A stretch of 64,000 nucleotides of DNA from a bacterium (GTDB lineage: Bacteria; Sumerlaeota; Sumerlaeia; SLMS01; JAHLLQ01): the NCBI GenBank assembly GCA_020444065.1, contig JAHLLQ010000001.1:1178001-1242000 (forward strand), in the 5' to 3' direction. The notes beneath the pieces were generated by a model that did no database searches, was not told the DNA's origin, and saw nothing but the letters and a program-made list of their open reading frames with translations. Below are positions 7,501-46,176 of this stretch, piece after piece; the first letter of the stretch is position 1; each line of letters starts with the position of its first letter. The translations under genes were made by a program, and so were the position numbers.

Positions 7501-8901
7501 CGCTCGAACCAGGTGCCCGATCACGCCGAGCCGCGCCCACATGCAATCGGGATGAATCTTCAGCGATTCTTTGAATTGCCGGATCGAAGCGGGATCTTGC
7601 GGCGCCGACTGGTACAGGTGGCGACAAAGCTGATTGTGAACCGCATCGTGTCGCGACCCAAGCTGGATCGCCTGCTGAAACAGGGTGACCGCCGAGTCGT
7701 CGATCCGCCCCATCTCCGCATAAGCAGTCGCGAGCGGAATGATCGTGTCTTCGCTATCGTCGCCCTCTTCGTGGATCTTGTCGAAGATGTCGATCACGCC
7801 CGTCCAGTTGCCCTGCGAGGCGTGAGACTTTCCAATCAGACGAAGGTACTTTGCGCGGTTCGGACTATGAGTAACGGCCTTGCGGTAGATCTCCAGCGCG
7901 TTCGTATCGATGTCGCCGCGGTTCGCGTGGAAGTCTGCCAACGCGACCGCCGCGTCGACGTCGTCGGTATGCAGGTTGTGCCATTTGCGAACGATGCCGG
8001 CATCTTCGTCGTTCAGCGTCTGCTTGCTCTGAACGAGGATCTTACCAAGGGTCCGCACAGCGTCCGGATCGTCGGGCCGCGCCTCCAGAACCTGGCGCAG
8101 CATTTCCATGCCCTCTTCTTCGTGCCCCGACCGGTCGCACAGCAGCCGACCGGCAAATAGCTTCATATCGACATCTTCCGGGGAGTACAGGAGCCCGCGT
8201 AGAGCATACTCGAGCGCTTTGGGGCTGCCATCGTCGCGATCGCGATAGAGTTCAGCCAAACGGCCACAAATCTCGGCGCGCTCCGGGAAGTGCTGCGAGC
8301 CTAGCATGAGAACGTGCTCTGCCTGTGGGTCGCTGCGAGTGGACTTGAGGACGGATTCCAACGCGTCGTCGAAACTATCGTAGAACAACGAGCGCGCTTC
8401 GGATTCGGTATCGACATCGAGCCACTCGCTCTCATCGATCGATGGGAAATAGGAACCCAATCCGATGGCGACCCGCTCCAACGAATCGACGATCATGGCC
8501 TGATCGCCTTGACGCCGGCGTTCTTCAAGCAGGCGGCGCCACAAACTCAGGTTCATGCCCTGGCGCGCGGCTTCACGTTCCAGATAGCTGAGATCGAGGA
8601 GTTCGAACTTGTCGCGACGGACCAGCGCTTTCACTAATTCGGAGAGCCAATACTCATCGTCAGGGAATGCCGCGTCGGCGAACCGGTAGAGCTCCGTTTC
8701 GTCCTGACCGACTTCCTGGAACGCTTCGGCAATGATGCGGAGCGAGGAGCGCCATTCTCCGGTCCCGGACTTGTCGAGCGCACGCGCCTGAGAAGCCTCG
8801 TCGCACGCCTCCTGGAGGAGACGACGTCGAGCCTCAGGATCTTCCAATTCTTTCAGCGCGCGTTTGCGGAACAGCCCTTTGAAACGCTCGGCAATCGCCA
8901 T
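4546..8901 (-). CDS. giant TPR-repeat protein with C-terminal Ser/Thr protein kinase
   Basis: A 1451-residue protein. Residues about 1-1150 are almost wholly helical tetratricopeptide-type repeats. Residues 1162 to about 1420 form a Hanks-type Ser/Thr kinase: G-K-G-A-M-G-E-V glycine loop, V-V-L-K-I-L with Lys 1191, H-R-D-I-K-P-A-N catalytic loop with Asp 1286, and D-F-G at 1304. All catalytic residues are present, so it should be active. No membrane segment or signal peptide is evident, so it is probably cytoplasmic. Most bacterial kinases of this sort carry the kinase first and the sensor after; here the TPR solenoid is N-terminal, which suggests a large scaffold that recruits partners to the kinase. 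It ends next to the convergent cupin gene. Target unknown. Confidence 0.88.
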   Translation of the reverse strand: MAIAERFKGLFRKRALKELEDPEARRRLLQEACDEASQARALDKSGTGEWRSSLRIIAEAFQEVGQDETELYRFADAAFPDDEYWLSELVKALVRRDKFELLDLSYLEREAARQGMNLSLWRRLLEERRRQGDQAMIVDSLERVAIGLGSYFPSIDESEWLDVDTESEARSLFYDSFDDALESVLKSTRSDPQAEHVLMLGSQHFPERAEICGRLAELYRDRDDGSPKALEYALRGLLYSPEDVDMKLFAGRLLCDRSGHEEEGMEMLRQVLEARPDDPDAVRTLGKILVQSKQTLNDEDAGIVRKWHNLHTDDVDAAVALADFHANRGDIDTNALEIYRKAVTHSPNRAKYLRLIGKSHASQGNWTGVIDIFDKIHEEGDDSEDTIIPLATAYAEMGRIDDSAVTLFQQAIQLGSRHDAVHNQLCRHLYQSAPQDPASIRQFKESLKIHPDCMWARLGVIGHLVRARDFGKALDEAAALLKENGNDIELQRLAAESLAGNFHRLQVRKVISLPPKTALAVLEQANQLHPDALPITSALVRSRLANNVRDMETAKMLGEICRRDPDEIELRIARADLLWELDQRDNAAMLYKELIERWRAMGGVSIKTQAIVRQERARILHRVAEFLMQPPGPKAEDMDILLEAALDPEANQDLVLAVARHMVETDHAHPMRLAFLERALAFAPGDELLERAVAESRAARGNPRPALKLGLAALIRKRYDASTVSLLRAALSYTRKEHLGEDVGRNLDDLARRGRALPEDVIRVWAQIVAIGQFWKPEFAKLMQRAVELEPNNPKLAGSLARCYEAAGEDQKAAELYRRVVDLLPEDDETVLSLARTHARLQRNTPEVLELASRAYEIAPEEADLGLHLAAVLLGTGQTHEAADILDRLLGEDAAVNQRVLTLLEQAAPLSSNHAEILLLLSKCYVRVGKIEQALVTLVRLHTQYTQYMGDLMACYDEIIRVAPDNARAHVERAILYKIMGQVEEAAEDLAEAAHLAPNNQDILEEYEEVLEFAVNTATAPSFDMLLRLTELRLDLENAEGASEIIDRALEMKPKNRAALLLKVKCLMGLGQHDEAHEAIRNLTDDDTKAVLLQSLSRQFEESHEYLRAAEVLTEALEISPDQRDLLERLRNLHVQQAREQNTTTDRQRILGELSPSARSRYEIRERLGKGAMGEVFLAYDRELDELVVLKILGKHFAKDPAAHARFKNEAKAARKLSHPNIVRIHDIGEEGGLKHISMEYVPGGDLRTMLQREKRILTLDESISIIRQIARALVHAHGEGVLHRDIKPANILIGTRGKMKLSDFGIAAIAHPEIARGGLIDSASQGTIFGTPIYMSPEHFAGDPLSVASDIYSLGILFYELITGLPPFCRGSVSYHHQYTKPAPLAPEVPGVISKVIFRCVEKKPERRYQSAVELLQALDEYDGIRRERGSSPRIRKLKADESQKEEDPV

Positions 8902-31208: not shown

Positions 31209-32027
31209 CTACGGGTGAATTCGCTCGGGAAAGGGGACCAAGGCATCCCTTGCGGGCTCTGCTTCATCATCCGACCTGCTGCTCGAACCAGTCGCCTGCC
31301 ATCCTGTTGGCCGAGGGACCGTTGGGAATAGCCGCAGGTAGTTGTCTGGTTCTCCCGTACATTCTTCAACCTCACAGGACCACGGCATCTGGTAGGCGGA
31401 ATCGTATTCCAATCCGCTAATTCGATAAGAAGTGCCACCAAGGTGCTCAAGGGTTGGACTCCCGGGACCAGTGATGTCATAGATCGCATATCCATGGAAT
31501 CCAAACTCAAACGTGAGTGGAAGATATCCGTCCCTGTCGGGCCAGGGGTCAAAAACCACGGAACAGTCCATCTGCTTCGGGGTGCATGTCGGAGTCGGCG
31601 AAGGGCTGGGTGGGGGGGGCGGCGATGGAGTGGCGTCGAAGCGATGGGCTGTGTAACTTGGGGCGTTCTGTGACCAAGCCTCTGGACAGTCCGGGGCTTG
31701 CGCAGGGATCTTCGCACTCACAGTAATTACGATGGTATCAAAACCTTCGCTTGGGAGTTGCACTGTGTTTGAGAGCCCTTCCGTGTACTCGGTCTCTCCG
31801 AAGTTCTTTGCCCACATGACGAGCGTGGGCGTCGTCGGCCAGGGATAGCCAACCTCTTCGATCACCGTGAGGCTGAGGAACTCCCCTGGTACAAATGTCG
31901 TTGCCTCGCCGCTTTCCTTGTCCAAGTCGATAGTGAAGAAACGATCGCATTCCTGCCCGCCTACGACCCCAGGCAGGCAAAGGGCCGCGACCACGATCAG
32001 AACCCAGAGCTGTTGATTGGGATTCAC
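31209..32027 (-). CDS. secreted two-module protein, paralogue of the upstream gene
   Basis: A 272-residue exported protein: signal peptide (ending near V-G-G-Q), an N-terminal module rich in Phe, Thr and Tyr (~110 residues), a Pro/Ser/Thr linker (P-S-P-P-P-P-P-S-P), and a C-terminal module containing paired Cys (C-T-P-K-Q-M-D-C, S-C-E-V-E-E-C). GTG 32027 overlaps the preceding stop (GTGA), which fixes the start. The N-terminal half is clearly diverged from its neighbour, while the C-terminal module is nearly identical at the DNA level. Function unknown; the Cys pairs suggest disulphides outside the cell. Confidence 0.75.
   Translation of the reverse strand: MNPNQQLWVLIVVAALCLPGVVGGQECDRFFTIDLDKESGEATTFVPGEFLSLTVIEEVGYPWPTTPTLVMWAKNFGETEYTEGLSNTVQLPSEGFDTIVITVSAKIPAQAPDCPEAWSQNAPSYTAHRFDATPSPPPPPSPSPTPTCTPKQMDCSVVFDPWPDRDGYLPLTFEFGFHGYAIYDITGPGSPTLEHLGGTSYRISGLEYDSAYQMPWSCEVEECTGEPDNYLRLFPTVPRPTGWQATGSSSRSDDEAEPARDALVPFPERIHP
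31303..31418 (-). repeat. near-identical direct repeat, copy 1
   Basis: This 116-base block matches 32130-32245 with a single base change. It encodes the last part of the C-terminal module of each secreted protein. Flanking sequence diverges more rapidly, so the block looks like a recent duplication or gene conversion tract. Confidence 0.9.
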
Positions 32028-32848
32028 GGGATTTCCGCTTCTCCATCCCCCGGCGGAACTTCGCACGGCAGGACGCGCGTGGGCGTCACGGCGGAGTTGT
32101 CACGACTCTCGGGTCCCAAGGTCTGCCAGCCTGTTGGCCGAGGGACTGTTGGGAATAGCCGCAGGTAGTTGTCTGGTTCTCCCGTACATTCTTCAACCTC
32201 ACAGGACCACGGCATCTGGTAGGCGGAATCGTATTCCAATCCGCTGATTCGATAGGAGGTACCGCCGAGGTGCTCAAGGACTGGACTCCCAGGACCCGAG
32301 ATTCCGTAGATTGCGTATCCTTGGAATCCGAACTCAAACGAGAGCGGAAGATATCCATCCTTGTCGGGCCAGGGGTCAAAGACCACGGAACAGTCCATCT
32401 GCTTCGGGGTGCATGTCGGCGTCGGCGAAGGGCTTGGCGGTGGCGTGGGCGATGGAGTCGCGTCGATCCTGCAGGCAACATAGTACGCCGAGTTCCGAGA
32501 CCACGCAGCCGGACAATCGGGACCTTGAGATGGGATATACGCTGTCGCCGAGATCTGTACGCAGTTGTATCCGACCAAGGGCATCGTGAAGCTCGTCGAT
32601 AAGGACTCCGTCTGAAGACTTGCCTCAAAATCCGAGGACCATATCACGAGAGTTGGCGTCGTTGGCCAGCTGTGCGCCTCTGTTTCGACGATGGTGAGTT
32701 CCAAGCAGTCGCCAGGTTCGTATGTCGCGGAAGGATCATACGACTTGTCGAAGGCTATCCAGAATTGATTGTCACAAGCCTGCCCCTCTGCGGCCGCAGT
32801 CAGTAGCACGAACACAAGCAATCCGACGATCTGAAGCTGGTTCAGCAT
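32024..32848 (-). CDS. secreted two-module protein
   Basis: A 274-residue exported protein with signal peptide (L-L-V-F-V-L-L-T-A-A-A), an N-terminal module with W-P-T-T-P-T-L-V-I-W shared with its neighbour, a Pro-rich linker (S-P-T-P-P-P-S-P-S-P) and the Cys-containing C-terminal module. ATG 32848 is chosen because it gives the signal peptide. The ~16-residue end after the shared module differs from the downstream paralogue. It overlaps that gene by four bases, so both are made from one message. Confidence 0.76.
   Translation of the reverse strand: MLNQLQIVGLLVFVLLTAAAEGQACDNQFWIAFDKSYDPSATYEPGDCLELTIVETEAHSWPTTPTLVIWSSDFEASLQTESLSTSFTMPLVGYNCVQISATAYIPSQGPDCPAAWSRNSAYYVACRIDATPSPTPPPSPSPTPTCTPKQMDCSVVFDPWPDKDGYLPLSFEFGFQGYAIYGISGPGSPVLEHLGGTSYRISGLEYDSAYQMPWSCEVEECTGEPDNYLRLFPTVPRPTGWQTLGPESRDNSAVTPTRVLPCEVPPGDGEAEIP
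32130..32245 (-). repeat. near-identical direct repeat, copy 2
   Basis: Partner of the 31303-31418 block (115 of 116 bases identical by eye). The two copies are in the same orientation 827 bases apart, so recombination between them would delete one gene copy. Confidence 0.9.
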
Positions 32849-32915
32849 TCTCGCTCGCTTCTTCCCTGTTCGATAATCTGTCTGGGCCCACTCGAATCCA
32901 CCTGATTTGCGGTAA

Positions 32916-34055
32916 TTACAACGCCCCCTCAACCGCCTTGCCGATCAGGTCGATCTTCTCTTCGTCCAGGTGCGGACCCATGGGGAGGGTGACGAGGCGG
33001 TCGATCAGGCTGTCCAGCACAGGGAGTTCGAGGCCTTCGAACATGCGGCGCGTGTGTGTGAAGGAATGCAGCGCCGGGTAGTGGAAGGACGTCTGGATGC
33101 CTTGCGACTTGAGGGATTCGCGGAATTTCCAGCGATCCGTCCCGGGTGGCAGCAGCACGACAAACAGGTGATGCACCGGCGTGCCGCGAGGCGTCGCGAA
33201 GGGGATCTGCAGGCCGCGTTCGGTGAGCGGCTGCAGGCGGTCGCGCAGCATCGCCGCGGCGTGCGTGCGGCGCTGGGTGTACTCCGGGAGCTTGCGCAAC
33301 TGCTGGCGGCCCATCGCGGCACGGACCTCGTCCAGCCGATAGTTGTAGCCCATCGCTTCGACATCGTAGCGGGACGCGTCGCCGTGATGGCGCTGCCAGG
33401 TGCCGGTGCTCATGCCGTGGCTGCGCAGCAGGCGAATGCGATCGGCCGTGGCCTCGTCGTCGGTCAGAACCATCCCGCCCTCGCCCGTCGTCATGTTCTT
33501 ATTCCCATAGAACGACCAGGTGGACGCGAGGCCGAACGAGCCGATGTGCCGGTCGCCCAGCAGCGCCAGCGGTGCGTGGCAGGCGTCCTCGACAAGCGGG
33601 ATGTTGCGGTCGCGCACGAGGGCCTCGATGGCTTCCATGTCCGGCGGGAATCCGCCGTACGGAATCGTTGCGATCAGGCGGGTGCGCGGTGTGATCTTGC
33701 TTTCCAGGTCCGCCACGGAGGTCGTCAGGTCGTCCTCGCTGGTGCAATCGATCAGGACCGGCTTTGCCCCCAGGTAGAGCCCGGCATTCATGGTGGCGAC
33801 AAACGTCAGCGCCGGGACACAGAATTCGTCCTCCGGGCCGAGTCCGGCGGCCTCGTAGGCCAGGTGCAGCGCCGCGGTGCCGTTGGAAACCGCGATGCCA
33901 TGCTTCATCCCCATCGCGTCGGCGAATTCGCGCTCGAAAGCGGCGACTTCGCGCCCCATGGTCAACCACCCGGAGCGCAAAACTTCGGCGACGGCGTCAA
34001 ATTCTGCCTCGTCGAGCGTAGTATCTGTGAGCGGTACGAGCCAGGGCGTGGCCAT
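32916..34055 (-). CDS. DegT/DnrJ/EryC1-family PLP sugar aminotransferase
   Basis: A 379-residue fold-type I enzyme of the DegT/DnrJ/EryC1/StrS family, which transfers amino groups to nucleotide-linked keto sugars in surface glycan synthesis. Marks: S-N-G-T-A-A-L-H (phosphate/PLP contact), V-E-D-A-C-H-A with Asp 157, and the PLP lysine at 186 in F-Y-G-N-K-N-M. Start at 34055 is the family-like M-A-T-P-W-L-V-P-L-T. It lies 67 bases before the two secreted paralogues on the same strand, without any overlap. Confidence 0.9.
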   Translation of the reverse strand: MATPWLVPLTDTTLDEAEFDAVAEVLRSGWLTMGREVAAFEREFADAMGMKHGIAVSNGTAALHLAYEAAGLGPEDEFCVPALTFVATMNAGLYLGAKPVLIDCTSEDDLTTSVADLESKITPRTRLIATIPYGGFPPDMEAIEALVRDRNIPLVEDACHAPLALLGDRHIGSFGLASTWSFYGNKNMTTGEGGMVLTDDEATADRIRLLRSHGMSTGTWQRHHGDASRYDVEAMGYNYRLDEVRAAMGRQQLRKLPEYTQRRTHAAAMLRDRLQPLTERGLQIPFATPRGTPVHHLFVVLLPPGTDRWKFRESLKSQGIQTSFHYPALHSFTHTRRMFEGLELPVLDSLIDRLVTLPMGPHLDEEKIDLIGKAVEGAL

Positions 34056-34223: not shown

Positions 34224-35405
34224 ATGTCTTCCGAGAAGGAAAAACCCTATCTGGACGCTCCGAGCGCCCCCCCGCGCCGCCGGAAAGGGCGCCGGCGCAC
34301 GATGCTGCTGCTGGTGGCCGTGGGCGTCGTGCTGATCGTCGGCTCGTGGCTGCTGATTGGCGGGCGCGGCGATTGGGAGTTCCTGACCGAGGAAAATACG
34401 ACCGGTCCTCGGATGTTCACCCTGGCCGACCAGGGGGAAGGCATAGACGCGATCAAGATTCGCTATCCGAGCGGCAAAGAGCACGAGTTGTCTCTGCGGG
34501 ATGGCCGCTGGCAAATCCGCAGCGGCGGCACCTGGCTTCCGATCTCCAGCGAGAGGCAACGGCTGCTGATGGAATCCGCCGAAGGCGAGCCGGAGTTACT
34601 CCGGCCGATGCTCGGAGCCTATCAGGGAAACAACCCCGCGAATCACGAGCACGCTTTCGGTGTGACGAGCGGTTCCGGGCTTCGGGTGCAGTTCTTCGCC
34701 GATGGCGACATGGTGCGGGATTGGATGGTCAGCCTGAAGTCGCCGCGTGACGAAGCGTCGAATTACATCCGCTCCCCAAACAGCCTGTCCGTGTATCTGG
34801 TGGATGCGAACCTGCGAGATAATTTCGCGGGCGAACGGCTGCTGGACTGGCGGCGTCGCTGGGTCTTCGAAGATGTCGATGTGGGTCAGATTGCAGCGGT
34901 CGAGATCACGGAACTGGAATCCGGTCGCCCGGTCTATTTCCTGGAGAAAGGCGATTCCGGATGGAGCATTCGCCTGGAAGACGGCGCGCGCCCAGCCCTG
35001 GCCCACGCGGTCGATCACACCTTGCAGGAATTGTCTCGAATGCGAATCCTGGATTACCCGCCGGAGGGTTCCGGCCCGTTCTATGCGAGTCAGGCGATCC
35101 GGGTCTCGCTGAAGGTCCGCGGGGAGGAGACCTCGCGGAGCGTGGCCATTGGACTCGAGGAAGCGTCGAAGTATGGGCTGCTGCCCGCGCGTCTGCAGGA
35201 CACCGATGAGATCGTCATGATCGGCCGGCCGTTCTGTCTGCTGCGCGCAGCGGATTCCTACTTCTTGCCTGAAACCGCCGTCACGGAAAGCGAGCCGACA
35301 GCGAGCGACGCCGCCTCTACCGAATCCGTTGAACTCGACCAAGGAGAGCCCGTTGACTCCCCCCAGCCCGTCCTTTCCGATCCAATGGCAGGAGCGTCTG
35401 CGTAA
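34224..35405 (+). CDS. DUF4340-like protein, single N-terminal membrane helix
   Basis: A 393-residue protein: basic N-terminus (R-R-R-K-G-R-R-R), membrane helix at about 27-46, then a large outside domain with repeated short beta units (I-K-I-R-Y-P-S-G, R-D-G-R-W-Q-I) resembling DUF4340 proteins, and a Ser/Pro/Glu-rich tail. DUF4340 proteins usually accompany ABC exporters of the gliding/secretion kind, but none is adjacent here. Its 3' end overlaps bshC by 53 bases in a different frame. A SD-like GAGAGGTTGAGGC precedes the ATG. Confidence 0.65.
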   Translation: MSSEKEKPYLDAPSAPPRRRKGRRRTMLLLVAVGVVLIVGSWLLIGGRGDWEFLTEENTTGPRMFTLADQGEGIDAIKIRYPSGKEHELSLRDGRWQIRSGGTWLPISSERQRLLMESAEGEPELLRPMLGAYQGNNPANHEHAFGVTSGSGLRVQFFADGDMVRDWMVSLKSPRDEASNYIRSPNSLSVYLVDANLRDNFAGERLLDWRRRWVFEDVDVGQIAAVEITELESGRPVYFLEKGDSGWSIRLEDGARPALAHAVDHTLQELSRMRILDYPPEGSGPFYASQAIRVSLKVRGEETSRSVAIGLEEASKYGLLPARLQDTDEIVMIGRPFCLLRAADSYFLPETAVTESEPTASDAASTESVELDQGEPVDSPQPVLSDPMAGASA

Positions 35406-37020
35406 CGCCGATCCCGAGGTCCTCGCGTGGTACGCCGCAGGCCCCCAGGATCTCGCTGAACATGCCCGGCGACGCATCGATCGCATGCCGGATCCTCTGA
35501 CCGACAACGAACTTCAGGAATGGCTGGATTGGCTCGCGCCATTCGATCCCCCGGAATCCGTCCTTTCAAATCTCAGGAAGCTGACCGAGGCGGGGACCCT
35601 TGCGGTCGTCACTGGGCAGCAGGCCGGCCTGTTTGGCGGGCCGATGATGGTGCTATTCAAAGCGATCGCCGCGGTGAAGCTGGCGCGCGAGATCGAAACG
35701 GCGACCGGCCGTCCCACCGTCCCCATTTTCTGGGTCGCCTCGGACGATCATGATTTCGCCGAGATCGCCGTCCACGAATGGGCTGCCGCGGACGGATCAC
35801 TGCGCACGTGGCGCGTCGAGGAAGATCCCGCACAAGCTGGTTTCCCGGTGTACGCACGCACGCTTCCGAAGGAGCAATTGCGCGCGTTCCTCGAGGAGTT
35901 TCTGGAAAGCACTCCCGAAACGGATTTCCGCCCTGACATCGAGGCATTCATTCGCACTCAGATTGAAGACCCTACTGCAACGTGGGAAAGCCAGTTCGTG
36001 GCAACGATCCTCAAATACCTCGGCACAACGGGGCTTGTGCCGGTCGCACCGCGCCTCGGTTGGTTGCGCCGACGCGCGGCTCCCGTAATGAAGCGCGAAA
36101 TCGAGATGGCGACGGATTCCAGCCGCCTGCTTCTGGAAGCCGGCGAGAGGTTGCAGGGGCTCGGCGCGGAAGGGGCCACGATTCATCGTCGCGGCAACGA
36201 AGCGAGTTTCTTCCTCGACTGGAAGGGCGTTCGCGCAAAGGTCGTTTGGGATGCCGATACGGCGAAGGTCCTTCACCCGGTTGGCGGAGAAGAGCTTGCG
36301 CAACTGACGCGCGACGAACTGCTGGGGCGACTGGATTCCACGCCTGAAGATTTTAGCCCGAACGCAGCTTTGCGTCCTGTCGTGCAGGACGTTGCACTGC
36401 CGACCGTCGCGTATGTCGGCGGCCCAGCAGAGGTGCTCTACCACGCGCAGATCGGGGCGCTGTACGAGCACTTCGACGCGTTTCGCCCGGCGCTCGTTCC
36501 GCGCCCTTCGGGTGTCCTGATCGAAGGTCGCCTGAATCGCCTTGCGAAGAAGCTGGACTTGAGCATCGCAGAAGCTCTGCAAGGCGGCTCGACTGAGGTT
36601 CACGAAGCGGCTGTCCGCCAGGCCGATCCGGAAGGCTTGCGGGGGCGAGTCGATGAGCAGGTTCGCGAAGTCCAGCGTGCACTCGAGCAACTGGGTACGC
36701 TGGTCGAATCGGAAACCAAGGACACGGGCTTGCGCCAGGCCGTCGACAAGATTGCGGGTGGTGTGGAAAAGGGGACGGAGAAGTTCATCGGGCGCCTGGA
36801 TGACTTCCTGATCCGGCGTGACCAGGAGCGCGTTCAGCAGGCGGACCGTTTGATCGAAGCTCTGTGGCCGAATGGCGCTCCGCAGGAACGTGTCGTGGGA
36901 ATGCTGTCCCCTCTCGTGCGCAATTACGGTCCCGATGCGCCGATTGCCATTGGCGAAGCGCTCGATCCGCATGCCCAAGGCATGCAGATGCTCGATGTGT
37001 CCGCAATCATGGGGAAGTAA
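35353..37020 (+). CDS. bshC: bacillithiol biosynthesis cysteine-adding enzyme BshC
   Basis: A 555-residue protein of the BshC family (typical ~540), which adds cysteine to glucosaminyl-malate in bacillithiol synthesis. Strong motifs: T-G-Q-Q-A-G-L-F-G-G-P, I-F-W-V-A-S-D-D-H-D-F (family FW-ASEDHDF) and Y-V-G-G-P-A-E-V-L-Y-H-A-Q. The start is taken as TTG 35353 because AAGGAG lies six bases upstream; another TTG at 35329 is also in frame. Its 5' end lies inside the DUF4340 gene. BshA and BshB were not seen in this window. Confidence 0.92.
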   Translation: MTPPSPSFPIQWQERLRNADPEVLAWYAAGPQDLAEHARRRIDRMPDPLTDNELQEWLDWLAPFDPPESVLSNLRKLTEAGTLAVVTGQQAGLFGGPMMVLFKAIAAVKLAREIETATGRPTVPIFWVASDDHDFAEIAVHEWAAADGSLRTWRVEEDPAQAGFPVYARTLPKEQLRAFLEEFLESTPETDFRPDIEAFIRTQIEDPTATWESQFVATILKYLGTTGLVPVAPRLGWLRRRAAPVMKREIEMATDSSRLLLEAGERLQGLGAEGATIHRRGNEASFFLDWKGVRAKVVWDADTAKVLHPVGGEELAQLTRDELLGRLDSTPEDFSPNAALRPVVQDVALPTVAYVGGPAEVLYHAQIGALYEHFDAFRPALVPRPSGVLIEGRLNRLAKKLDLSIAEALQGGSTEVHEAAVRQADPEGLRGRVDEQVREVQRALEQLGTLVESETKDTGLRQAVDKIAGGVEKGTEKFIGRLDDFLIRRDQERVQQADRLIEALWPNGAPQERVVGMLSPLVRNYGPDAPIAIGEALDPHAQGMQMLDVSAIMGK

Positions 37021-37027
37021 TCGGCCC

Positions 37028-38212
37028 TCAGTTCGCCTTCAGGAACTCCAGCAAGCGTTCTTCTGGGACGCGCCCGTCGCCCGCAAAGAATCGCGAGTGG
37101 AACTGACCGTTGCCGTCCAGCCGCACAAGGCCGGGCGCGCCGGGCAGGCGATACTGCAACGGCATGTCGGGGAACTCCGCCGTGTCCACCCGGACAAGCA
37201 CCATGTTCCCCGCAGCGTATCGCAGCGCTTCTCGAGCGCGCTCGAAGTAAATCTCGAATCGATTGCTGTCCAGCAACTGCTTGTTCGTGAACATCAGCAG
37301 CACGGGCTTCTCGGGCGCGGCGAGATCCAGGCCCGGCTTATAATCGTACCAGAGCGTCAGCCAGTTCAGATCGACATCGGCAACGGGCGCCGGAGTGGGC
37401 GTCGGGGGAGGCAGAGTATTCTCCGGCTCAACCGGCGGCGCATCTGCGAACGGATTGAGAGCGAACCCGGTGGGCAATGGAGTGGGCTCGGGCGTCGGCA
37501 CCGGCGTTGGCAGGGACTCGTATGCCGACGGCTCGCCATCATACGGATCGGCCGCCTGGCGTTCGGTTAACCCTTCCGGAGTCGTCACGTCCTCCGCCCA
37601 TGATTGCGTCGAGTGATGGCAGTTCCAGCACTCCGCGATACCGCTTTGAATCATCGCGTGATGGGCGCCGATTGGCGGCGCTTGCTTCAACCCATGGCAG
37701 GCCGCGCAGTTGGTGATGCTCACACCTTCGGGCAGCACGTTCGGATCGCTGTGAGGGAAGACCTTCGGCACGCCGGCCGGAGGCGGGAGATGCGTCACAT
37801 GGCAATCCGCACAGTTCATCTCCGCCACTTGCGGCAACTTGTGATATTCCAACGACGCCACATGGGCGCGCTTCTTCGCCAGTTCGCGCGGGTTGTCGAT
37901 CTTCAACTGCATCCAGCCTGGCTCGTAGATGGGAGGCGCAAAGTCGGCCTGGTAGGCTTCCATGTAGTTGGAGTGACATTCCGTCGTCGCGCAGCCCGTA
38001 TTAACAACCGGCGTGAAGGGCTCGCCGTGGCACTTCACGCAAGCCACTGAAGCGTAGCCGACGGAACTGCCTTCGTGATCGTTGTACGGCGTTGCGTAGT
38101 AATATTCCTTTGGCTTGCCAATCGACAGGTAGATGATGGCGCCGAGAATTCCCAATGTAACGAGGTAATTCGCGATCAGCATTCCGCTGCTTGGGTGCAG
38201 GTCTCTGGCCAT
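37028..38212 (-). CDS. membrane-anchored five-haem cytochrome c with C-terminal thioredoxin-like domain
   Basis: A 394-residue protein. An N-terminal helix (~12-32) anchors it. Five haem c sites follow: CVKCH, C-ATTE-CH (CX4CH), CADCH, CAACH and CWNCH, at about 58, 74, 134, 169 and 195. Extra His residues (H-A, H-S, H-H) could be axial ligands. After a Pro/Thr-rich linker (~215-275) comes a thioredoxin-fold-like domain (V-L-L-M-F-T-N-K ... L-V-R-V-D-T-A-E-F) that lacks the C-x-x-C pair, so it is probably a binding module. ATG 38212 has GGGGGA at 7 bases; GTG 38218 is also possible and overlaps the kinase stop. It must be exported for haem attachment and is coupled to the kinase-cytochrome b gene. 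Confidence 0.82.
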   Translation of the reverse strand: MARDLHPSSGMLIANYLVTLGILGAIIYLSIGKPKEYYYATPYNDHEGSSVGYASVACVKCHGEPFTPVVNTGCATTECHSNYMEAYQADFAPPIYEPGWMQLKIDNPRELAKKRAHVASLEYHKLPQVAEMNCADCHVTHLPPPAGVPKVFPHSDPNVLPEGVSITNCAACHGLKQAPPIGAHHAMIQSGIAECWNCHHSTQSWAEDVTTPEGLTERQAADPYDGEPSAYESLPTPVPTPEPTPLPTGFALNPFADAPPVEPENTLPPPTPTPAPVADVDLNWLTLWYDYKPGLDLAAPEKPVLLMFTNKQLLDSNRFEIYFERAREALRYAAGNMVLVRVDTAEFPDMPLQYRLPGAPGLVRLDGNGQFHSRFFAGDGRVPEERLLEFLKAN

Positions 38213-38214
38213 CG

Positions 38215-40344
38215 TCACATCCCCCGATACCAGAGGATACTGAGCACATGGAGCAACGTCAGCAGCCCCAACGCCACGGCCAGCGGGTAGTGAATAATGC
38301 GCCAGAATTTGAACACCGTTTGCGAGAACACGGACATGGTCATGCGCGTGTCCTTCGGCGGCGGATTCTTTCCGGCCTGAATGCGCTCGAGCGTGACTTG
38401 TTTCGAGATATCGCGCCAGATCGTTGCGCCAACCAGGCCGCTGACAATCACGACAAGGAAGATCAGACTGTTCAGGAACGGAATGATCGGCACGAAATCG
38501 TAGATGTTACGATCGGCGTATTGGTAAGTCACTTGGCCTTTAGATAGAAACCCGCCATCCTTGGTATAAAACCATTGGAAGAAGTTTCCGCTGTGGATCG
38601 TTACGAGAAAGAATGAAATCAGCGCGCAGAAGATGTGCGCGTACATCCAGACGCGGATTTGCCCGAAGACTGGAATCATTCGTCGGCGCGCCATTGCCAC
38701 ATAGGCAATGAAGAGAACCGCCATCGCGAAGAACGCCGTGCCCACGTCGCCGGTCAGCGACAGCCAACTATGGTGCCCCCAACTGCGCAGCAGGTTGTGA
38801 ACGGCGATCGCCAGCACCGTCAGTGCTAGCCCCACCGCCGACATCAGGCCGATCTTTCTCCAGATGTGCCGGACACCGCGGTCGCCGATGTTCAGCAGCG
38901 ACTCGGCCAGGAAGTCTGTCGGCGACTTGATGATTCCTTCGGCAAGTTCGAACGCCTCGATCATCTGGAACAGATCGTTGTAGTCCTTGAAGCGCTCCTC
39001 CGGCTGCTTCGCCATCATCTTCTGGAGAATCGCGCTGAACGTCGGGGGAATCTCCGACTTCCGATCGCTGGCGTTCGGAATGGGGGCCTCGATATGGAGT
39101 TGCGTCGTCTCGTAGGAGCTCTTGCCGCGGTAGGGCGGCTCGCCTGTGCAAAGGTGGTAGAAGGTCGCACCGAGCGAATACATGTCGGTCTTGAACGTCT
39201 GCGGCAGGCCGGCGGCCTGTTCCGGCGAGATGTACAGCGGCGTTCCGACAATCTCGTCGCTTTCGAAAGCGCCCGAATCGGAAATGATCGCCGCCAGGCC
39301 AAAGTCCACGAGCTTGAGATCGCCCTGGTCGCTGATCAGGATATTCCCCGGCTTGATATCGCGGTGGATCACGCCGGCCTTCTTCGCCCGGTGCAGTCCG
39401 CGAAGACACTGCTTCATAAGATTCGTGCAGACCTCGACGGGGACCGTTTCATCCTCGGAGATCAAGTCGCGCAGCGTGTGTCCCTCCACCTTCTCCATCG
39501 TGAAGTAGTGGAGTCCTTCCGCCTCTCCGACATCGTAGACTTGAACGATGTTCGCGTGCGTGAAGGAGGCGAGCGTGCGAGCCTCTTCGAAAAACTTGTT
39601 AATGTAATTCTCATGCTTCGCCATGTGGGTTGGCAGGACCTTCAGCGCCACGCGGCGATCCAGGGCGATCTGCGTCGCCTCGTAGACATCGCCCATGCCG
39701 CCGGAACCCAGTCGTCCTTCGATCCGATAGCCGCCGAGGTTTACGCCGACAAGGTCCAGGTTCTCCCCCGCCGCGGCGCGACGAATCCTGTCTCGATCCG
39801 CATCGGTCATCTGCCGCGCGCTGGAAACACGCTGGGCGGCCGCCGATCTCGATGCGCCCTGGGACACGTTTGAGGAAATGGGGGATTCTTCGGTCAGAGC
39901 CGGCTCAGCCGGAGGAGCCTCGCGCGGTGAAAGCTCGCTCGAGTCTGCCTTCCAGAGCTCCACGGAGGCCGAGCTTTGCTGATCCGGCTGCCCCTCGGCG
40001 GGGCTCTCCGGGACGGTTTCTTCGGCCAGAAGCCCCGCCTCGCCGGGATCAAGGAGCAGCGTCTCTTCACCTTCCTCGACGCGCACTGTTCTTTCCGGTT
40101 CGACCTGTACGGTTCGCTGCAGTTCCAGATCTTCGCCGATCTCGCCATCCAGGCTCTTGCGAAGAACGCGGAGCTGATCCTCGGAGATGTAGCCCTGCTC
40201 GACCAGAATCTGCCCGACATCGTAATCGCTGTCGTGATGGAGGGCCTCGCGCGCCAGATCCACGAGCTGATCCTGTGTGATCAGCCCATGCGTGATGGCC
40301 GCCTGCAATAAGGCTTCATTTTCCGAACGGTCTGGCGTCGCCAT
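38215..40344 (-). CDS. Ser/Thr protein kinase fused to a dihaem cytochrome b-type membrane domain
   Basis: A 709-residue fusion. Residues ~8-66 look like the GspE/MshEN N-terminal fold (I-T-Q-D-Q-L, L-V-E-Q-G-Y-I-S-E-D-Q-L). A disordered acidic segment leads to a Hanks kinase at 205-470: glycine loop G-S-G-G-M-G-D-V, Lys 235, H-R-D-I-K-P-G-N at 327-334, D-F-G at 347-349. Residues ~498-704 hold five membrane helices; two carry His pairs, His 570/His 584 and His 685/His 699, each 14 residues apart. That spacing is the textbook pattern for two stacked b haems in cytochrome b and ferric reductase/NOX families. No flavin or NAD domain is attached. It overlaps the downstream cytochrome c gene. Start M at 40344 is favoured over one 50 codons upstream. 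Confidence 0.85.
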   Translation of the reverse strand: MATPDRSENEALLQAAITHGLITQDQLVDLAREALHHDSDYDVGQILVEQGYISEDQLRVLRKSLDGEIGEDLELQRTVQVEPERTVRVEEGEETLLLDPGEAGLLAEETVPESPAEGQPDQQSSASVELWKADSSELSPREAPPAEPALTEESPISSNVSQGASRSAAAQRVSSARQMTDADRDRIRRAAAGENLDLVGVNLGGYRIEGRLGSGGMGDVYEATQIALDRRVALKVLPTHMAKHENYINKFFEEARTLASFTHANIVQVYDVGEAEGLHYFTMEKVEGHTLRDLISEDETVPVEVCTNLMKQCLRGLHRAKKAGVIHRDIKPGNILISDQGDLKLVDFGLAAIISDSGAFESDEIVGTPLYISPEQAAGLPQTFKTDMYSLGATFYHLCTGEPPYRGKSSYETTQLHIEAPIPNASDRKSEIPPTFSAILQKMMAKQPEERFKDYNDLFQMIEAFELAEGIIKSPTDFLAESLLNIGDRGVRHIWRKIGLMSAVGLALTVLAIAVHNLLRSWGHHSWLSLTGDVGTAFFAMAVLFIAYVAMARRRMIPVFGQIRVWMYAHIFCALISFFLVTIHSGNFFQWFYTKDGGFLSKGQVTYQYADRNIYDFVPIIPFLNSLIFLVVIVSGLVGATIWRDISKQVTLERIQAGKNPPPKDTRMTMSVFSQTVFKFWRIIHYPLAVALGLLTLLHVLSILWYRGM

Positions 40345-40930
40345 GGCCTGGCCCAAGTCGTGAGTTCGCTGCTGACTAACGATTTCGACCACAGGAATCC
40401 CGGCAGGCCAAGTGAAAACCGGCGCGTCGCGGAACCGCGGTCTTTCGGCGCTGCGCCGTGGATTCGCGATGGCACAAAAGAGACACTCGTACAATTTTCT
40501 TCGCTGGCTACGCCAAAGGGAGGAAAATCAAGGGGTCGAGAACTTTTTTTTTGCATTCTCCAAACCGGCACAAATCACGCTCGGTCAGGTCGTCAGAGGG
40601 CAAAGGCACTACCTCTGAGCAGGGGGCACTCGAGCACTCCAGAATCCGGGGCTGGTTCTGGAGTGCCTTCTTTTTAGGCCCATAAAGGAATATGGTAGCC
40701 GATTTCAAAGGGCTGTCAATTATTCCGACGTCAATCCCTCCGTGGATCCTCTGAATACTCCTCACGATCCTTCACACGGGCTCCTGCAGTCGCCGACTGC
40801 AAATGAATTCCTCACAGGAAACCCATTTGGGTCCTGTTGCATTCACGCAACGGAACTCGGTTGCGCAACGCAACAAGGTGAAACAATCTACCCTCATGTT
40901 GTGGGACGAATTGAGGGGAACGGACCTCCG
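40345..40930. other. 586-base intergenic region with a stand-alone plus-strand hairpin pair
   Basis: The region lies upstream of the kinase-cytochrome b gene (-) and the methyltransferase gene (+). It includes a short inverted repeat TCAGAGG/CCTCTGA around 40594-40618, the terminator at 40634-40675 and A+T-richer sequence at 40660-40870. The frame open at 40742-40930 has atypical codon use and was not called coding. A transcript that ends at the terminator would be a small RNA or a leader of the methyltransferase. Confidence 0.5.
40634..40675 (+). terminator. Rho-independent terminator with no gene before it
   Basis: A perfect 11-base stem (GCACTCCAGAA against its complement, 40634-40644 and 40656-40666) with an 11-base loop is followed by CTTCTTTTT. 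This is a strong plus-strand terminator, although the nearest upstream plus-strand gene is thousands of bases away. Confidence 0.85.
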
Positions 40931-41814: not shown

Positions 41815-44800
41815 ATGGCTCTTCTTGATTCCCGTGTATTCCGCCGCTCGTTGCTCTTCGCGATCGATCTGATTCTATTGGCCTTAGCCTGGATACTCTC
41901 CTACTCGCTGCGGTTCGAGTTCTCGATCCCCAGCCTGCCGGAAGATCCATACGCCGGCCAGATGCTGGTGATGATCCCGTGGGTCGTCGGCCTGCAGCTC
42001 GTTTTATTCGCGGTCTTCCATCTCTACCGAGGCATCGTCAAGTACGTCAGCACCGCCGAATTGCGTACGATCATCATCGCCACTGTAATCAATGTGGGCG
42101 TCTGGTCGGCCTTCAATATGTGGGTTCAGCATCGGGAGCAGTTTCTCCAGATGCCGCTTACGATGGATGCCAGCACGGTGCTGCGCATTCCCTACGGAAT
42201 CCTGGGCATCTATTTCTTCATCTCGATTATCTTCGTGGGCGGGCTGAGATTCTTGCGACGCATCTGGGTCGAGAGCATAGGCGGCCATTTCGACGAGGAC
42301 GCCCCGGCTACACTGATCGTCGGTGCAGGCGATCTCGCCGAGAATGCTCTTCGCGACATCATGCGTTCAGAAGCCTCACCCTATCGGCCGGTATGCGCAG
42401 TCACGACCACCTCGCCGCGAGTCGGCTCATCGATTCAGGGCGTGAAAGTCGTCGGCACCGTCGATCGAATTCCCGAAGTGCTGGATCACTACGAAATCAA
42501 GGCGGTGCTGATCGCGCTCGAAGAAGACGATCCGAAGGTTCTCCGCAAGGTCGTCCAGGAATGTCAGGACGCCCAGGTGGCGTTCCATATCATCCCGACG
42601 ATGCGCGACATCACGAGCGGCAAGGTCGATGTGAGCCCCGTGCGGCGCGTCGGCATCGAGGATTTGCTCGGCCGCGAACCGGTGAATCTGACGCTGGCCG
42701 AGGATCGCAACTACCTGCGCGGCGAAACGGTTCTGATCACCGGCGCCGGTGGTTCGATCGGGTCGGAACTCTCACGCCAGGTCGCGTGGGCACGCCCGAA
42801 GGCAATGCTCCTGCTCGGCAAGGGCGAGAACTCCATTTACGATATTCACTCGGAGCTTGCCCCCAAGCATCCCGAGATCGAATTCCACGCGCTTGTTGCC
42901 GATGTGCGCGATCAGGCCGCGATGACAGGTATTTTCGAACTGCACCGCCCGACGATCGTCTTCCACGCGGCGGCGCACAAGCATGTGCCGCTGATGGAGG
43001 TACAGCCGGGCGAAGCGGTGAAGAACAATATTCTCGGCACGGCCACGGTGGCGTTCCTCGCGCACCTGGTGAACACGAAGAAGTTCGTGCTGATCTCGAC
43101 CGACAAGGCCGTTCGCCCGACGAGCGTCATGGGGGCGACAAAGCGCATCGCGGAGACGATTGTGTTCAGCCTCGGCGAACGTTCGCGAACGACTTTTCAG
43201 GCGGTTCGATTCGGAAACGTGCTGGGCAGTCGAGGATCGGTAATCCCGCTGTTCCAGCGGCAGATTGAAGCCGGCGGACCAGTGACGGTCACGCATCCGG
43301 AAGTCACGCGCTTCTTCATGACAATCCCGGAGGCGGTGAGTCTGCTGCTGCAGGCCGGATCGAAGTCGGAGTCGCGCTCGCTTTTCCTGCTCGACATGGG
43401 CGAGCCCGTGAAGATCGCGGATCTTGCGCGCAACATGATCACGCTCTCCGGCCTGAAGCCCGGCGCGGACATCGAAATCAAGTACACCGGCCTGCGCCCC
43501 GGCGAGAAGTTGCGCGAAGACTTGCTGACCAAGGAAGAAGGCGCCCAGGCGACCGACATCGGCAAAGTGTGGGCAACAAAGCCCAAGTTCATCCCCACGT
43601 GGAAGGAAGTCCAAGGGCTTGTGACCGAATTCCGCGATATGGCCGATGCCATGGACGATCGCGGCATTGTGGAACTGCTCCGTGACACCGTTCCGGATTT
43701 CCATCCGACGACGCTGCCGGACCTCACTGATCGCGAGGCGCTGCTACGCTTGAAGGACCGGGCGATGCAGGAGCTCGAGGGTCTCGCAACGAATATGCGA
43801 TCAGAGCTTGGCCTTGAGGGCGTTGAAGTCGAAGAGCCCGCGGTAGATGAAGTGGCGCCCGACCAGGACGACGAGCCCGAGACCTTCGATGGGCCCGAGA
43901 TTCCGGAGGAGGTTCCGGAAACGCCGGACATGTTCCCCGAGGGCGAAGACACAGCCCCACCGACTCGGCCGGGTGTTGTGGCGCGCCACCAGTCGGAGCT
44001 TCTGGATCGTGACGAGGAAGTCGAAGATCGCACCGTCCCGGCTGATGATATCGAAACACTGGAATCGGATGCAGCCCCAGACACGAAGACCGAGAGCGCC
44101 CCGGACGTGGACGAGGACGACGATAAGCTGGGATACGAGAGCCTTCGGACTCCCCCGCCACTGACGGCGGATACATTGGCGGATCTGGAAGGCGCCAACG
44201 CAGAAGACATCAATCCGAAGACGGTCGAGATCGAGAAGCCGAACTTCGATGAAGAGCCCGAATCGGACGAGATGGTCGATGAGTTGATCGCTCCCGTTCC
44301 GGATGTTCGCTCGGATGGCGAAGGACTCGAACATCCGGCTGCGAATGACGATCGGGAATTGACCGATTCGGATGTGATGCGCACGCCTCCCCCCATCTCA
44401 GAGCAAGTCCTGGAGGAGATGGGTGGCGAGCGCGGCGAAGAGTACAAGACGGAAGAGGTTTCATCACTCGATCTCGAGAAAGACCTCCTCGACGAAGACA
44501 CCGCCCCGCCGCTCCCCGATGAAGAACCGGAGCCCGAGGCAGATGCCCAGGAAGAGCTCTGGGAAGATGAGATAGAGGAAGAGCAGCCGGAGAGTCTCGT
44601 CCCAGAGGAAGTCCACGAAGAGGAAGTCCACGACGAAATCGTTGACGAAGAACCAACCCGAGAGGAACCGGATGCTGCAATCGAGCACGAATTTGACATG
44701 CCGCCGCTCGCCTACTTCCTCGCCGTCGAGGCGGGTCCCGGCCTGGCATCGACGTTGGCGCATTACCTGGATATTCTCGGCCCGGACGACATGCTGCTGC

Positions 44801-46176
44801 TTGCCGGCCCGGTTGCGCAGCACGATATCCCCCCCGACTATGCCGACCGCGTAACGCTCATCGGCGAAAGTGGTTCGCCCGGCGCGGCCGATTGGAACAA
44901 CGCCATCGATAGTTGCCCGATCGGAGCGATCTTTGTCGCGGCCTCTCCTGAGGCGCGCATCCTGCCCACACTGGCACCACGGCTCGCAGAGGCATTTTCC
45001 CGCGAAGAAGTGGCCGTCGCGTATGGCGACTACATCGAACGCGATGCCGAAGGGAACGAGTCACTGGTCGAACTGCAGGATCACGCCGGCTGTCCGCACG
45101 AACGATTCGATTTCGGACCGGTGATTGCCTATCGCGCGGGCATGGTTCAAGCCGTCGGAAAACTGGACGAGGAGTTGGAGTTCGCCTTCCAGTACGATCT
45201 GCACCTGCGCCTGATGCAGGAAGGTCTGTTCGTTCGGATGACCGAGCCCATCGCAGTCGTGCCGGCGGCCGCATCTGACCAGGTAACGGCGCTGCACTCG
45301 CCCGGGCGGGGTCCTCTTGGCGGGTTCTCATACGTTTTCTATCCGCCGGAGGTGGAAGCCGAAGTGACCCAGGTGTTCGAGAAGGCACTGCGCCAGATCG
45401 GAGCCTGGATCGATCAGCCGACCCATCGCGTGCCCACGCCTGATGAGGAGCCCGAAGTCACCGCGTCGATCGTGGTTCCGGTCCTGAATCGTGAGGATAC
45501 GATCGGCAACGCCATTCGGAGTGTGCTGGAAGGAACCTACCAGGACTTCGAGATCATCGTGGTCGACAACGGTTCGACCGATCAAACCTGCGATGCTGTT
45601 GCCGAGTTAATTGAAGAGGACCATCGCGTGCGCCTGATAGATGGCATGGGCGATTCGATCGCCTCCGCGCTGAACGACGGAATCCGCGTCGCCCGCGGCC
45701 GATACATCTGCCAGTTGGACAGCGATGACGAGTACGTCCCGGAGACCCTGGAACGCATGATCGAGCAGTTGGAATCCAACCCGAAGTGCGGCCTCGCGAT
45801 CAGCTACTATCGCCTGATCGATGAGGAGGGAAACGTCATTGAGGATGTTCCGCCGGTCACACACACGGGTTACTCGCGGAACCAGATCGTGCGACGTGAC
45901 GGCGCCGGAGCAGTTCGCGTCTTCCCGAAGACGGTGCTCGAGGAAATGGGGCTGTACGACGAGGAGCACTACGGAAACTTCGGCGAGGACTATGATATGG
46001 TCCTGAAGGTTTCGGAGCGTTACGATGTAGATCGTGTCAGCGAGGTGCTGTATCATTATCGCCGCCATTCCGGGAACACGGACATGACGCGCGATCCAAA
46101 GACGAAGTATGTGAACAAGAACCGGGCGCGCCAGATGGCTCTGCGCCGACGCATGAGGATGAACGAAGAGAGGTGA
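41815..46176 (+). CDS. polysaccharide epimerase (CapD/FlaA1-like) fused to two glycosyltransferase-like domains
   Basis: A 1453-residue fusion. Residues 1-150: four membrane helices as in WbpM/CapD-type C6-dehydratases. Residues ~150-290: a CoA-binding-like nucleotide domain. Residues ~300-620: SDR dehydratase with I-T-G-A-G-G-S-I-G-S at ~306 and S-T-D-K-A-V-R-P-T. Residues ~660-960: very acidic, Glu/Asp/Pro-rich, disordered. Residues ~962-1205: a GT-A-like module without a clear D-x-D. Residues ~1212-1440: a GT2 transferase with I-V-V-P-V-L-N-R-E-D, V-D-N-G-S-T-D-Q-T and D-S-D-D-E. CapD-type and GT2 enzymes are normally separate proteins. Expected job: make a modified UDP-sugar and add it to a lipid-linked or surface glycan. 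Confidence 0.87.
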   Translation: MALLDSRVFRRSLLFAIDLILLALAWILSYSLRFEFSIPSLPEDPYAGQMLVMIPWVVGLQLVLFAVFHLYRGIVKYVSTAELRTIIIATVINVGVWSAFNMWVQHREQFLQMPLTMDASTVLRIPYGILGIYFFISIIFVGGLRFLRRIWVESIGGHFDEDAPATLIVGAGDLAENALRDIMRSEASPYRPVCAVTTTSPRVGSSIQGVKVVGTVDRIPEVLDHYEIKAVLIALEEDDPKVLRKVVQECQDAQVAFHIIPTMRDITSGKVDVSPVRRVGIEDLLGREPVNLTLAEDRNYLRGETVLITGAGGSIGSELSRQVAWARPKAMLLLGKGENSIYDIHSELAPKHPEIEFHALVADVRDQAAMTGIFELHRPTIVFHAAAHKHVPLMEVQPGEAVKNNILGTATVAFLAHLVNTKKFVLISTDKAVRPTSVMGATKRIAETIVFSLGERSRTTFQAVRFGNVLGSRGSVIPLFQRQIEAGGPVTVTHPEVTRFFMTIPEAVSLLLQAGSKSESRSLFLLDMGEPVKIADLARNMITLSGLKPGADIEIKYTGLRPGEKLREDLLTKEEGAQATDIGKVWATKPKFIPTWKEVQGLVTEFRDMADAMDDRGIVELLRDTVPDFHPTTLPDLTDREALLRLKDRAMQELEGLATNMRSELGLEGVEVEEPAVDEVAPDQDDEPETFDGPEIPEEVPETPDMFPEGEDTAPPTRPGVVARHQSELLDRDEEVEDRTVPADDIETLESDAAPDTKTESAPDVDEDDDKLGYESLRTPPPLTADTLADLEGANAEDINPKTVEIEKPNFDEEPESDEMVDELIAPVPDVRSDGEGLEHPAANDDRELTDSDVMRTPPPISEQVLEEMGGERGEEYKTEEVSSLDLEKDLLDEDTAPPLPDEEPEPEADAQEELWEDEIEEEQPESLVPEEVHEEEVHDEIVDEEPTREEPDAAIEHEFDMPPLAYFLAVEAGPGLASTLAHYLDILGPDDMLLLAGPVAQHDIPPDYADRVTLIGESGSPGAADWNNAIDSCPIGAIFVAASPEARILPTLAPRLAEAFSREEVAVAYGDYIERDAEGNESLVELQDHAGCPHERFDFGPVIAYRAGMVQAVGKLDEELEFAFQYDLHLRLMQEGLFVRMTEPIAVVPAAASDQVTALHSPGRGPLGGFSYVFYPPEVEAEVTQVFEKALRQIGAWIDQPTHRVPTPDEEPEVTASIVVPVLNREDTIGNAIRSVLEGTYQDFEIIVVDNGSTDQTCDAVAELIEEDHRVRLIDGMGDSIASALNDGIRVARGRYICQLDSDDEYVPETLERMIEQLESNPKCGLAISYYRLIDEEGNVIEDVPPVTHTGYSRNQIVRRDGAGAVRVFPKTVLEEMGLYDEEHYGNFGEDYDMVLKVSERYDVDRVSEVLYHYRRHSGNTDMTRDPKTKYVNKNRARQMALRRRMRMNEER

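Follow-up and report, generated by a model that had tools for sequence, protein, structure and literature searches.

A predicted redox-responsive Ser/Thr kinase of Sumerlaeota, fused to a cytochrome b module and encoded beside a multihaem cytochrome c gene

Kinases that respond to redox conditions are as a rule controlled indirectly, by quinones, by thiols, or by a cytochrome complex that is separate from the kinase. The last case is exemplified by STT7/STN7, a Ser/Thr kinase of plants and algae whose activation proceeds through a cytochrome complex of the membrane (PMC13287000). Its coupling to cytochrome b6f follows the same logic as that proposed below for the kinase P0001 of Sumerlaeota, which is a likeness of function; the two systems differ in that the kinase and the cytochrome of STT7/STN7 are separate proteins, with no dedicated multihaem cytochrome c partner of this kind. 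A covalent c haem in a periplasmic signalling sensor is described for the Geobacter chemoreceptors GSU0582 and GSU0935 (PMC3460858; PMC8396549). As presented there, these sensors differ from the P0001 unit in having a PAS fold and one haem, in being methyl-accepting, and in having no transmembrane haem path. Hanks-type membrane kinases similar to PknB share with P0001 the kinase domain and the topology with a cytoplasmic N-terminal kinase, while the membrane part of P0001 is of the cytochrome type. Proteins of the FRD superfamily (NOX, FRE, YedZ/MsrQ, STEAP; PF01794) contain pairs of haem-ligand histidines in TM3 and TM5, like the membrane module of P0001; in the dihaem type the two members of a pair are 13–14 residues apart. 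In NOX2 these ligands are 101/115 and 209/222, with 101 and 209 on the cytoplasmic side, and 115 and 222 on the side equivalent to the periplasm (PMC3591440). Unlike FRD proteins, P0001 has an N-terminal kinase, no flavin or NAD domain, and a multihaem c partner, and it does not reach the Pfam cut-off. The text of the survey of FRD proteins (PMC3591440) does not contain the word kinase, and a survey that covers 307 kinase architectures of Planctomycetota (PMC11032199) does not use the words cytochrome, heme, or redox in its text. The passages found in the Sumerlaeota genome paper do not mention a kinase–cytochrome fusion. No kinase–dihaem cytochrome fusion was found described in the open-access literature, which agrees with the initial annotation of this locus, where the order of a kinase followed by a membrane dihaem module was called unfamiliar. 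The functional analogy to STT7/b6f and the family membership, in Hanks-type kinases and FRD-type cytochromes, are separate statements.

The window analyzed here is a 64,000-nt stretch of DNA from a genome of the phylum Sumerlaeota, which is 5.2 Mb long and assembled in 14 contigs. P0001 was defined by translation, Pfam matches, and alignment of homologues as a 709-aa protein encoded at positions 38215–40344 of the reverse strand, on which all features of the unit described below are located. The start at 40344 is putative, and the upstream frame is open as far as a TTG at 40494. The protein kinase domain (PF00069, E 1.7e-53) spans residues 206–452 (38989–39729) and has complete catalytic motifs. 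The residues K235, HRD 327–329, and DFG 347–349 were found at the positions originally proposed and are invariant across eight homologues, and the glycine loop of the Hanks-type fold is also present. By its fold and motifs P0001 is a Hanks-type Ser/Thr protein kinase, with activity on serine and threonine predicted. The kinase domain is preceded by a short N-terminal domain (residues 1–70, 40135–40344), which was modeled as four short helices in a full-length structure model of poor quality (pLDDT 61) and contains a weak MshE-like c-di-GMP motif. A juxtamembrane linker, defined by alignment and hydropathy (residues 472–497, 38854–38931), connects the kinase to TM1 and contains the invariant leucines L479 and L483. 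Searches of Pfam and NCBIfam identified no FAD- or NAD(P)H-binding domains in P0001, and no quinone site was identified either; because the flavin and NAD domains are absent, P0001 does not qualify as a ferric reductase or NADPH oxidase. About 38 further kinase matches are present in the same genome, and the window itself encodes another Ser/Thr kinase in a 1451-aa frame (4546–8901, reverse strand), which is 41% identical over residues 178–466.

The C-terminal part of P0001 (residues 490–709, 38218–38877) is a five-helix cytochrome b module of the ferric-reductase type, as judged from alignment, profile comparison, hydropathy, and structure modeling. Hydropathy analysis confirmed the earlier proposal of five membrane helices after the kinase, with segments at residues 498–516, 534–552, 565–583, 620–638, and 688–706, and with two histidine pairs, each 14 residues apart, at 570/584 in TM3 and 685/699 in TM5. 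The eight fused modules were aligned with ten free-standing cytochromes b, and all four histidines were invariant in this 18-sequence set. Because this holds for sequences with identity to the window module as low as 17%, the histidine pairs are not a product of chance. A Ser-Gly-x-x-Gly motif in TM4 and a Trp-Arg motif before TM5 are likewise invariant. The numbers of lysines and arginines before, between, and after the helices are, in order, 5, 1, 4, 3, 8, and 1, which gives 5, 4, and 8 for the inside loops and 1, 3, and 1 for the outside ones, and this distribution fits a topology in which the kinase is cytoplasmic and the C-terminus lies outside. Since this charge-based topology places the kinase inside, His 570 (38635–38637) and His 685 (38290–38292) would be located at the cytoplasmic side, and His 584 (38593–38595) and His 699 (38248–38250) at the periplasmic side. 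By position they are like His-101, His-209, His-115, and His-222 of NOX2, respectively, and they are predicted to ligate haem as the pairs 570/685 and 584/699. The AlphaFold2 model of the module is confident (pLDDT 84, pTM 0.77) and has helices that agree with the five segments. A fold search of the PDB with this model gave no match at E ≤ 0.001, and the FRD relative STEAP1 was found with a TM score of 0.41, which is not significant.

To place the module in a family, single sequences and profiles were compared. DUF4405 (PF14358) and PF01292 cytochromes b were each matched by some of the 18 members, PF01292 by ten (best E 1.7e-7) and DUF4405 by eight (best 7e-6), while the window module itself matched only PF01292, and weakly (E 0.026). 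The Ferric_reduct family PF01794 was matched by five of the 18 (best E 0.0021), with scores that do not reach the Pfam cut-off, and no PF01794 match was listed for P0001. When the profile of the 18-member family was compared using hhalign with PF01794 members, the match had a probability of 96% (E 4.8e-9, about 145 columns), versus 0.3% for the reversed profile; the eight kinases alone gave 81% (E 1.2e-5), versus 15% when reversed. The profile match to DUF4405 was poor, at 44% for the whole set and 12% for the kinases alone. In the PF01794 alignment the second histidine of TM3 and both histidines of TM5 are at or beside histidines of the example sequence, while the first histidine of TM3 is opposite an arginine. 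Arginine in place of this TM3 histidine is known for YedZ/STEAP proteins (PMC3591440), and haem b binding was demonstrated for a purified DUF4405 protein (PMC11334425). The assignment of the module as a ferric-reductase-type cytochrome b, with haem binding predicted, is supported by these comparisons, as it had been proposed from the sequence at first inspection.

The gene that follows P0001 (37028–38212) encodes a membrane-anchored multihaem cytochrome c, according to sequence motifs, hydropathy, and homologue alignment. In numbering from the ATG at 38212, the protein has one N-terminal transmembrane segment at residues 11–29, CxxCH sites at 58, 134, 169, and 195, and a CX4CH site at 74, which is the composition that the initial annotation had reported. 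Matches to cytochrome c7/c3 Pfam families were weak in the window protein, while in the relative from genome G004 the C7 match was above the cut-off. With several CxxCH-type sites in a predicted exported protein, the gene product is by its sequence a multihaem cytochrome c. The reported stop/start overlap of the two genes probably does not hold. The 4-base GTGA overlap requires the GTG at 38218, a possible start. Since the homologues align from the residue equivalent to the ATG at 38212 (MARD versus MALE/MAVA), the c gene probably starts at this favored ATG, with a 2-base gap after the kinase stop, and the genes would abut. The C-terminal region (37028–37363) was described as a thioredoxin-like domain lacking CxxC. 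The lack of CxxC was borne out, while the domain itself was matched weakly (Thioredoxin_7, E 0.053 in the window protein; Thioredoxin_2, E 0.012 in G002), and, of the eight homologous c proteins, three contain this part and five lack it. Haem is attached to c-type proteins outside the cytoplasm, and for this reason the c haems must be located outside. Each of the order's 12 genomes encodes cytochrome c assembly proteins.

To learn how widely this arrangement occurs, 118 genomes were searched with the module alone. Seven more genomes of the order gave matches, each with a module frame that runs on into a kinase. These fused modules are 31–67% identical to the window module. An assembly or frame error near 38900, raised at the outset as an alternative cause of the fusion, was rejected, as intact fusions exist in seven further genomes. 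The unit of fusion and c gene is present in 8/40 Sumerlaeota genomes, which are eight of the 12 genomes of the order and none of the 28 outside it; some of these genomes are incomplete, which makes single absences uncertain. The c gene is directly downstream of the fusion in all eight genomes and always contains the CX4CH site, accompanied by four CxxCH sites in three genomes and by two in five. Comparison of the eight loci showed that the kinase–cytochrome and c gene pair are the only genes common to all neighborhoods. The dN/dS ratios (NG86) were 0.045–0.068 for the cytochrome part and 0.12–0.16 for the kinase with the N-terminus, values that are rough, with dS near saturation. The two-gene unit is under purifying selection. 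The fused modules form one clade (support 100/98, midpoint rooting), which suggests a single fusion event. One genome (G003) belongs to the window's family by taxonomy, but its copy groups with the copies of the other family.

Several other genes were observed near the unit. In G002 and G004 the cassette is followed, in the same direction, by a response regulator-HisKA-HATPase gene (L021:5359–6459 and L022:7233–8345, reverse strand), the two copies being 82% identical to each other; this response regulator-histidine kinase gene is absent at the window. Where present, its product is a first candidate for a partner. A bshC-type bacillithiol synthesis gene (35329–37020; TIGR03998, E 5e-100) converges on the cassette in the window and is not conserved there elsewhere. 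The window also contains a 1453-aa frame (41815–46176), in which a CapD-like nucleotide-sugar epimerase, an acidic linker, and a family-2 glycosyltransferase could be recognized by eye in one chain, and two tandem, clearly similar proline-rich proteins (31209–32066 and 32024–32932) with near-identical C-terminal parts.

A search of about 490 genomes with the module profile detected free-standing cytochrome b relatives of about 200 residues in several other lineages. All ten of those that were aligned adjoin a gene with 8–10 c-haem sites, so that the co-occurrence with multihaem c genes, to which the first analysis had pointed, extends to 8/8 fusions and 10/10 free-standing proteins. No kinase reading frame was found at the loci of the free-standing cytochromes, most of which extend only 1.5 kb to either side. 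The c proteins of the cassette show a relationship to those of the free pairs (hhalign 96%, E 3.8e-9, 91 columns; the common CxxCH spacing adds to the score), and hence the kinase probably took over a pre-existing b–c pair. In the collection of genome contigs, a peptide pattern identified no relatives via the cytochrome b part alone, and an alignment search with the kinase–cytochrome matched at least 80 loci, among which one of those listed, from Sumerlaeota OFTM212, carries the module; the kinase-rich phyla Planctomycetota and Acidobacteria were sampled only within the mixed genome set. Three longer frames of 755, 667, and 834 aa were rejected as kinase fusions, as they were an FeS-FAD-cytochrome, a cNMP-ferredoxin-cytochrome, and an apparently unfused cytochrome b in a long frame. 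Among other loci, L149:5510–7492 encodes a distant relative of the module fused to cyclic-nucleotide-binding and ferredoxin domains, which could be another regulatory fusion; the genes downstream of it have 6 and 27 haem sites. At L148:4898–7159 the cytochrome b module shares a chain with 4Fe-4S and pyridine-nucleotide oxidoreductase domains, and the genes that come next contain 23 and 27 haem sites. At L142:5769–11249 long- and short-type cytochrome b genes stand in tandem, and the genes after them encode about 10, 20, and 9 haem sites.

The architecture of the unit, which includes the gene pair, the domains, the invariant motifs, the family relation, and the charge topology, is well supported by these sequence comparisons. 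Because the predicted b sites face both sides of the membrane and the c haems would be outside, a haem path from the outside to the kinase side is anatomically possible. We consider it fairly probable that P0001 is a redox-responsive kinase switched by electrons that move between the periplasmic c haems and the membrane b haems; in this reading the haem occupancy, the electron path, the redox control, and the targets are what we infer. The fusion and the c gene would form one membrane redox-signaling unit, in which the c protein, attached to the periplasmic face of the cytoplasmic membrane, would exchange electrons with the periplasm-side haem b (His 584/699), and this one with the cytoplasm-side haem b (His 570/685). 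The latter haem would lie near the helix joining TM1 to the kinase, so that its redox state could affect the conformation or dimerization of the kinase and thereby the level of Ser/Thr phosphorylation. The signal read in this way may be the state of a periplasmic or quinone electron pool. Of the route from c haem to b haem to kinase that the initial annotation had put forward, the gene pairing, the type of the module, and the topology have been borne out, while the further steps have the status of predictions.

The strongest alternative, which we regard as unlikely, is that the b–c pair is primarily an electron-transfer enzyme, passing electrons for example from quinol to a periplasmic acceptor, and that the kinase regulates this enzyme or its neighbors. 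Such a role would agree with the pairing of the free-standing homologues with c proteins of 8–10 haem sites, which resemble electron conduits, and with the distant version at L148, whose FeS and NAD(P)/FAD domains are enzymatic. On the other hand, the c partner of the cassette has just three to five haem sites, which is small for a conduit, and the conserved neighborhood includes no gene for a terminal reductase or oxidase. The kinase and the cytochrome could also be fused for co-localization only. Two observations weigh against the redox-switch reading itself, namely that a site for flavin, NAD, or quinone was not identified in the protein, and that the full-length model was poor and the fold search with the module model returned nothing significant.

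As many sensors that use haem respond to a ligand, the b haem module might detect a gas or small ligand (O2, NO, or CO) at the haem iron instead of electron flow. This appears improbable, as with two invariant histidines per predicted site the haems would be six-coordinate, and the c gene, which is always present, would have no role. That the helices are only a membrane anchor with a vestigial cytochrome function could be suggested by the single spans that anchor most membrane Ser/Thr kinases in the Planctomycetota survey (PMC11032199). We regard it as very improbable, since all haem-ligand histidines are retained, the rate of evolution is lower in the cytochrome part than in the kinase part, and an anchor requires neither a four-histidine core nor an adjoining multihaem gene. 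It is equally improbable that the N-terminal domain with its four short helices is a c-di-GMP module that provides the main input, with haem redox secondary, because the match to NF053729 (MshE-type c-di-GMP, residues 18–59, E 6e-5) is below the cut-off and is found in none of the seven relatives, and the identity of P0001 as an MshE-type c-di-GMP kinase was rejected on these grounds.

Returning to the redox-responsive reading, the sequence points to a known type of kinase combined with a kind of sensor that was not found described for kinases. In P0001 a predicted electron-transfer protein and a kinase form a single polypeptide, which has a dedicated haem partner on the outside, and the unit is confined to two genes. 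There is about an even chance that it represents a new class of signal transducers in which the sensor of the kinase is a transmembrane cytochrome that conducts electrons and is connected to a multihaem c protein outside, and in which phosphorylation within the cell would be gated by the flow or reduction level of electrons outside. If this is true, direct coupling of electrons to phosphorylation becomes testable, as the unit can be expressed and assayed, and it would provide a handle on signaling in the uncultured phylum Sumerlaeota.
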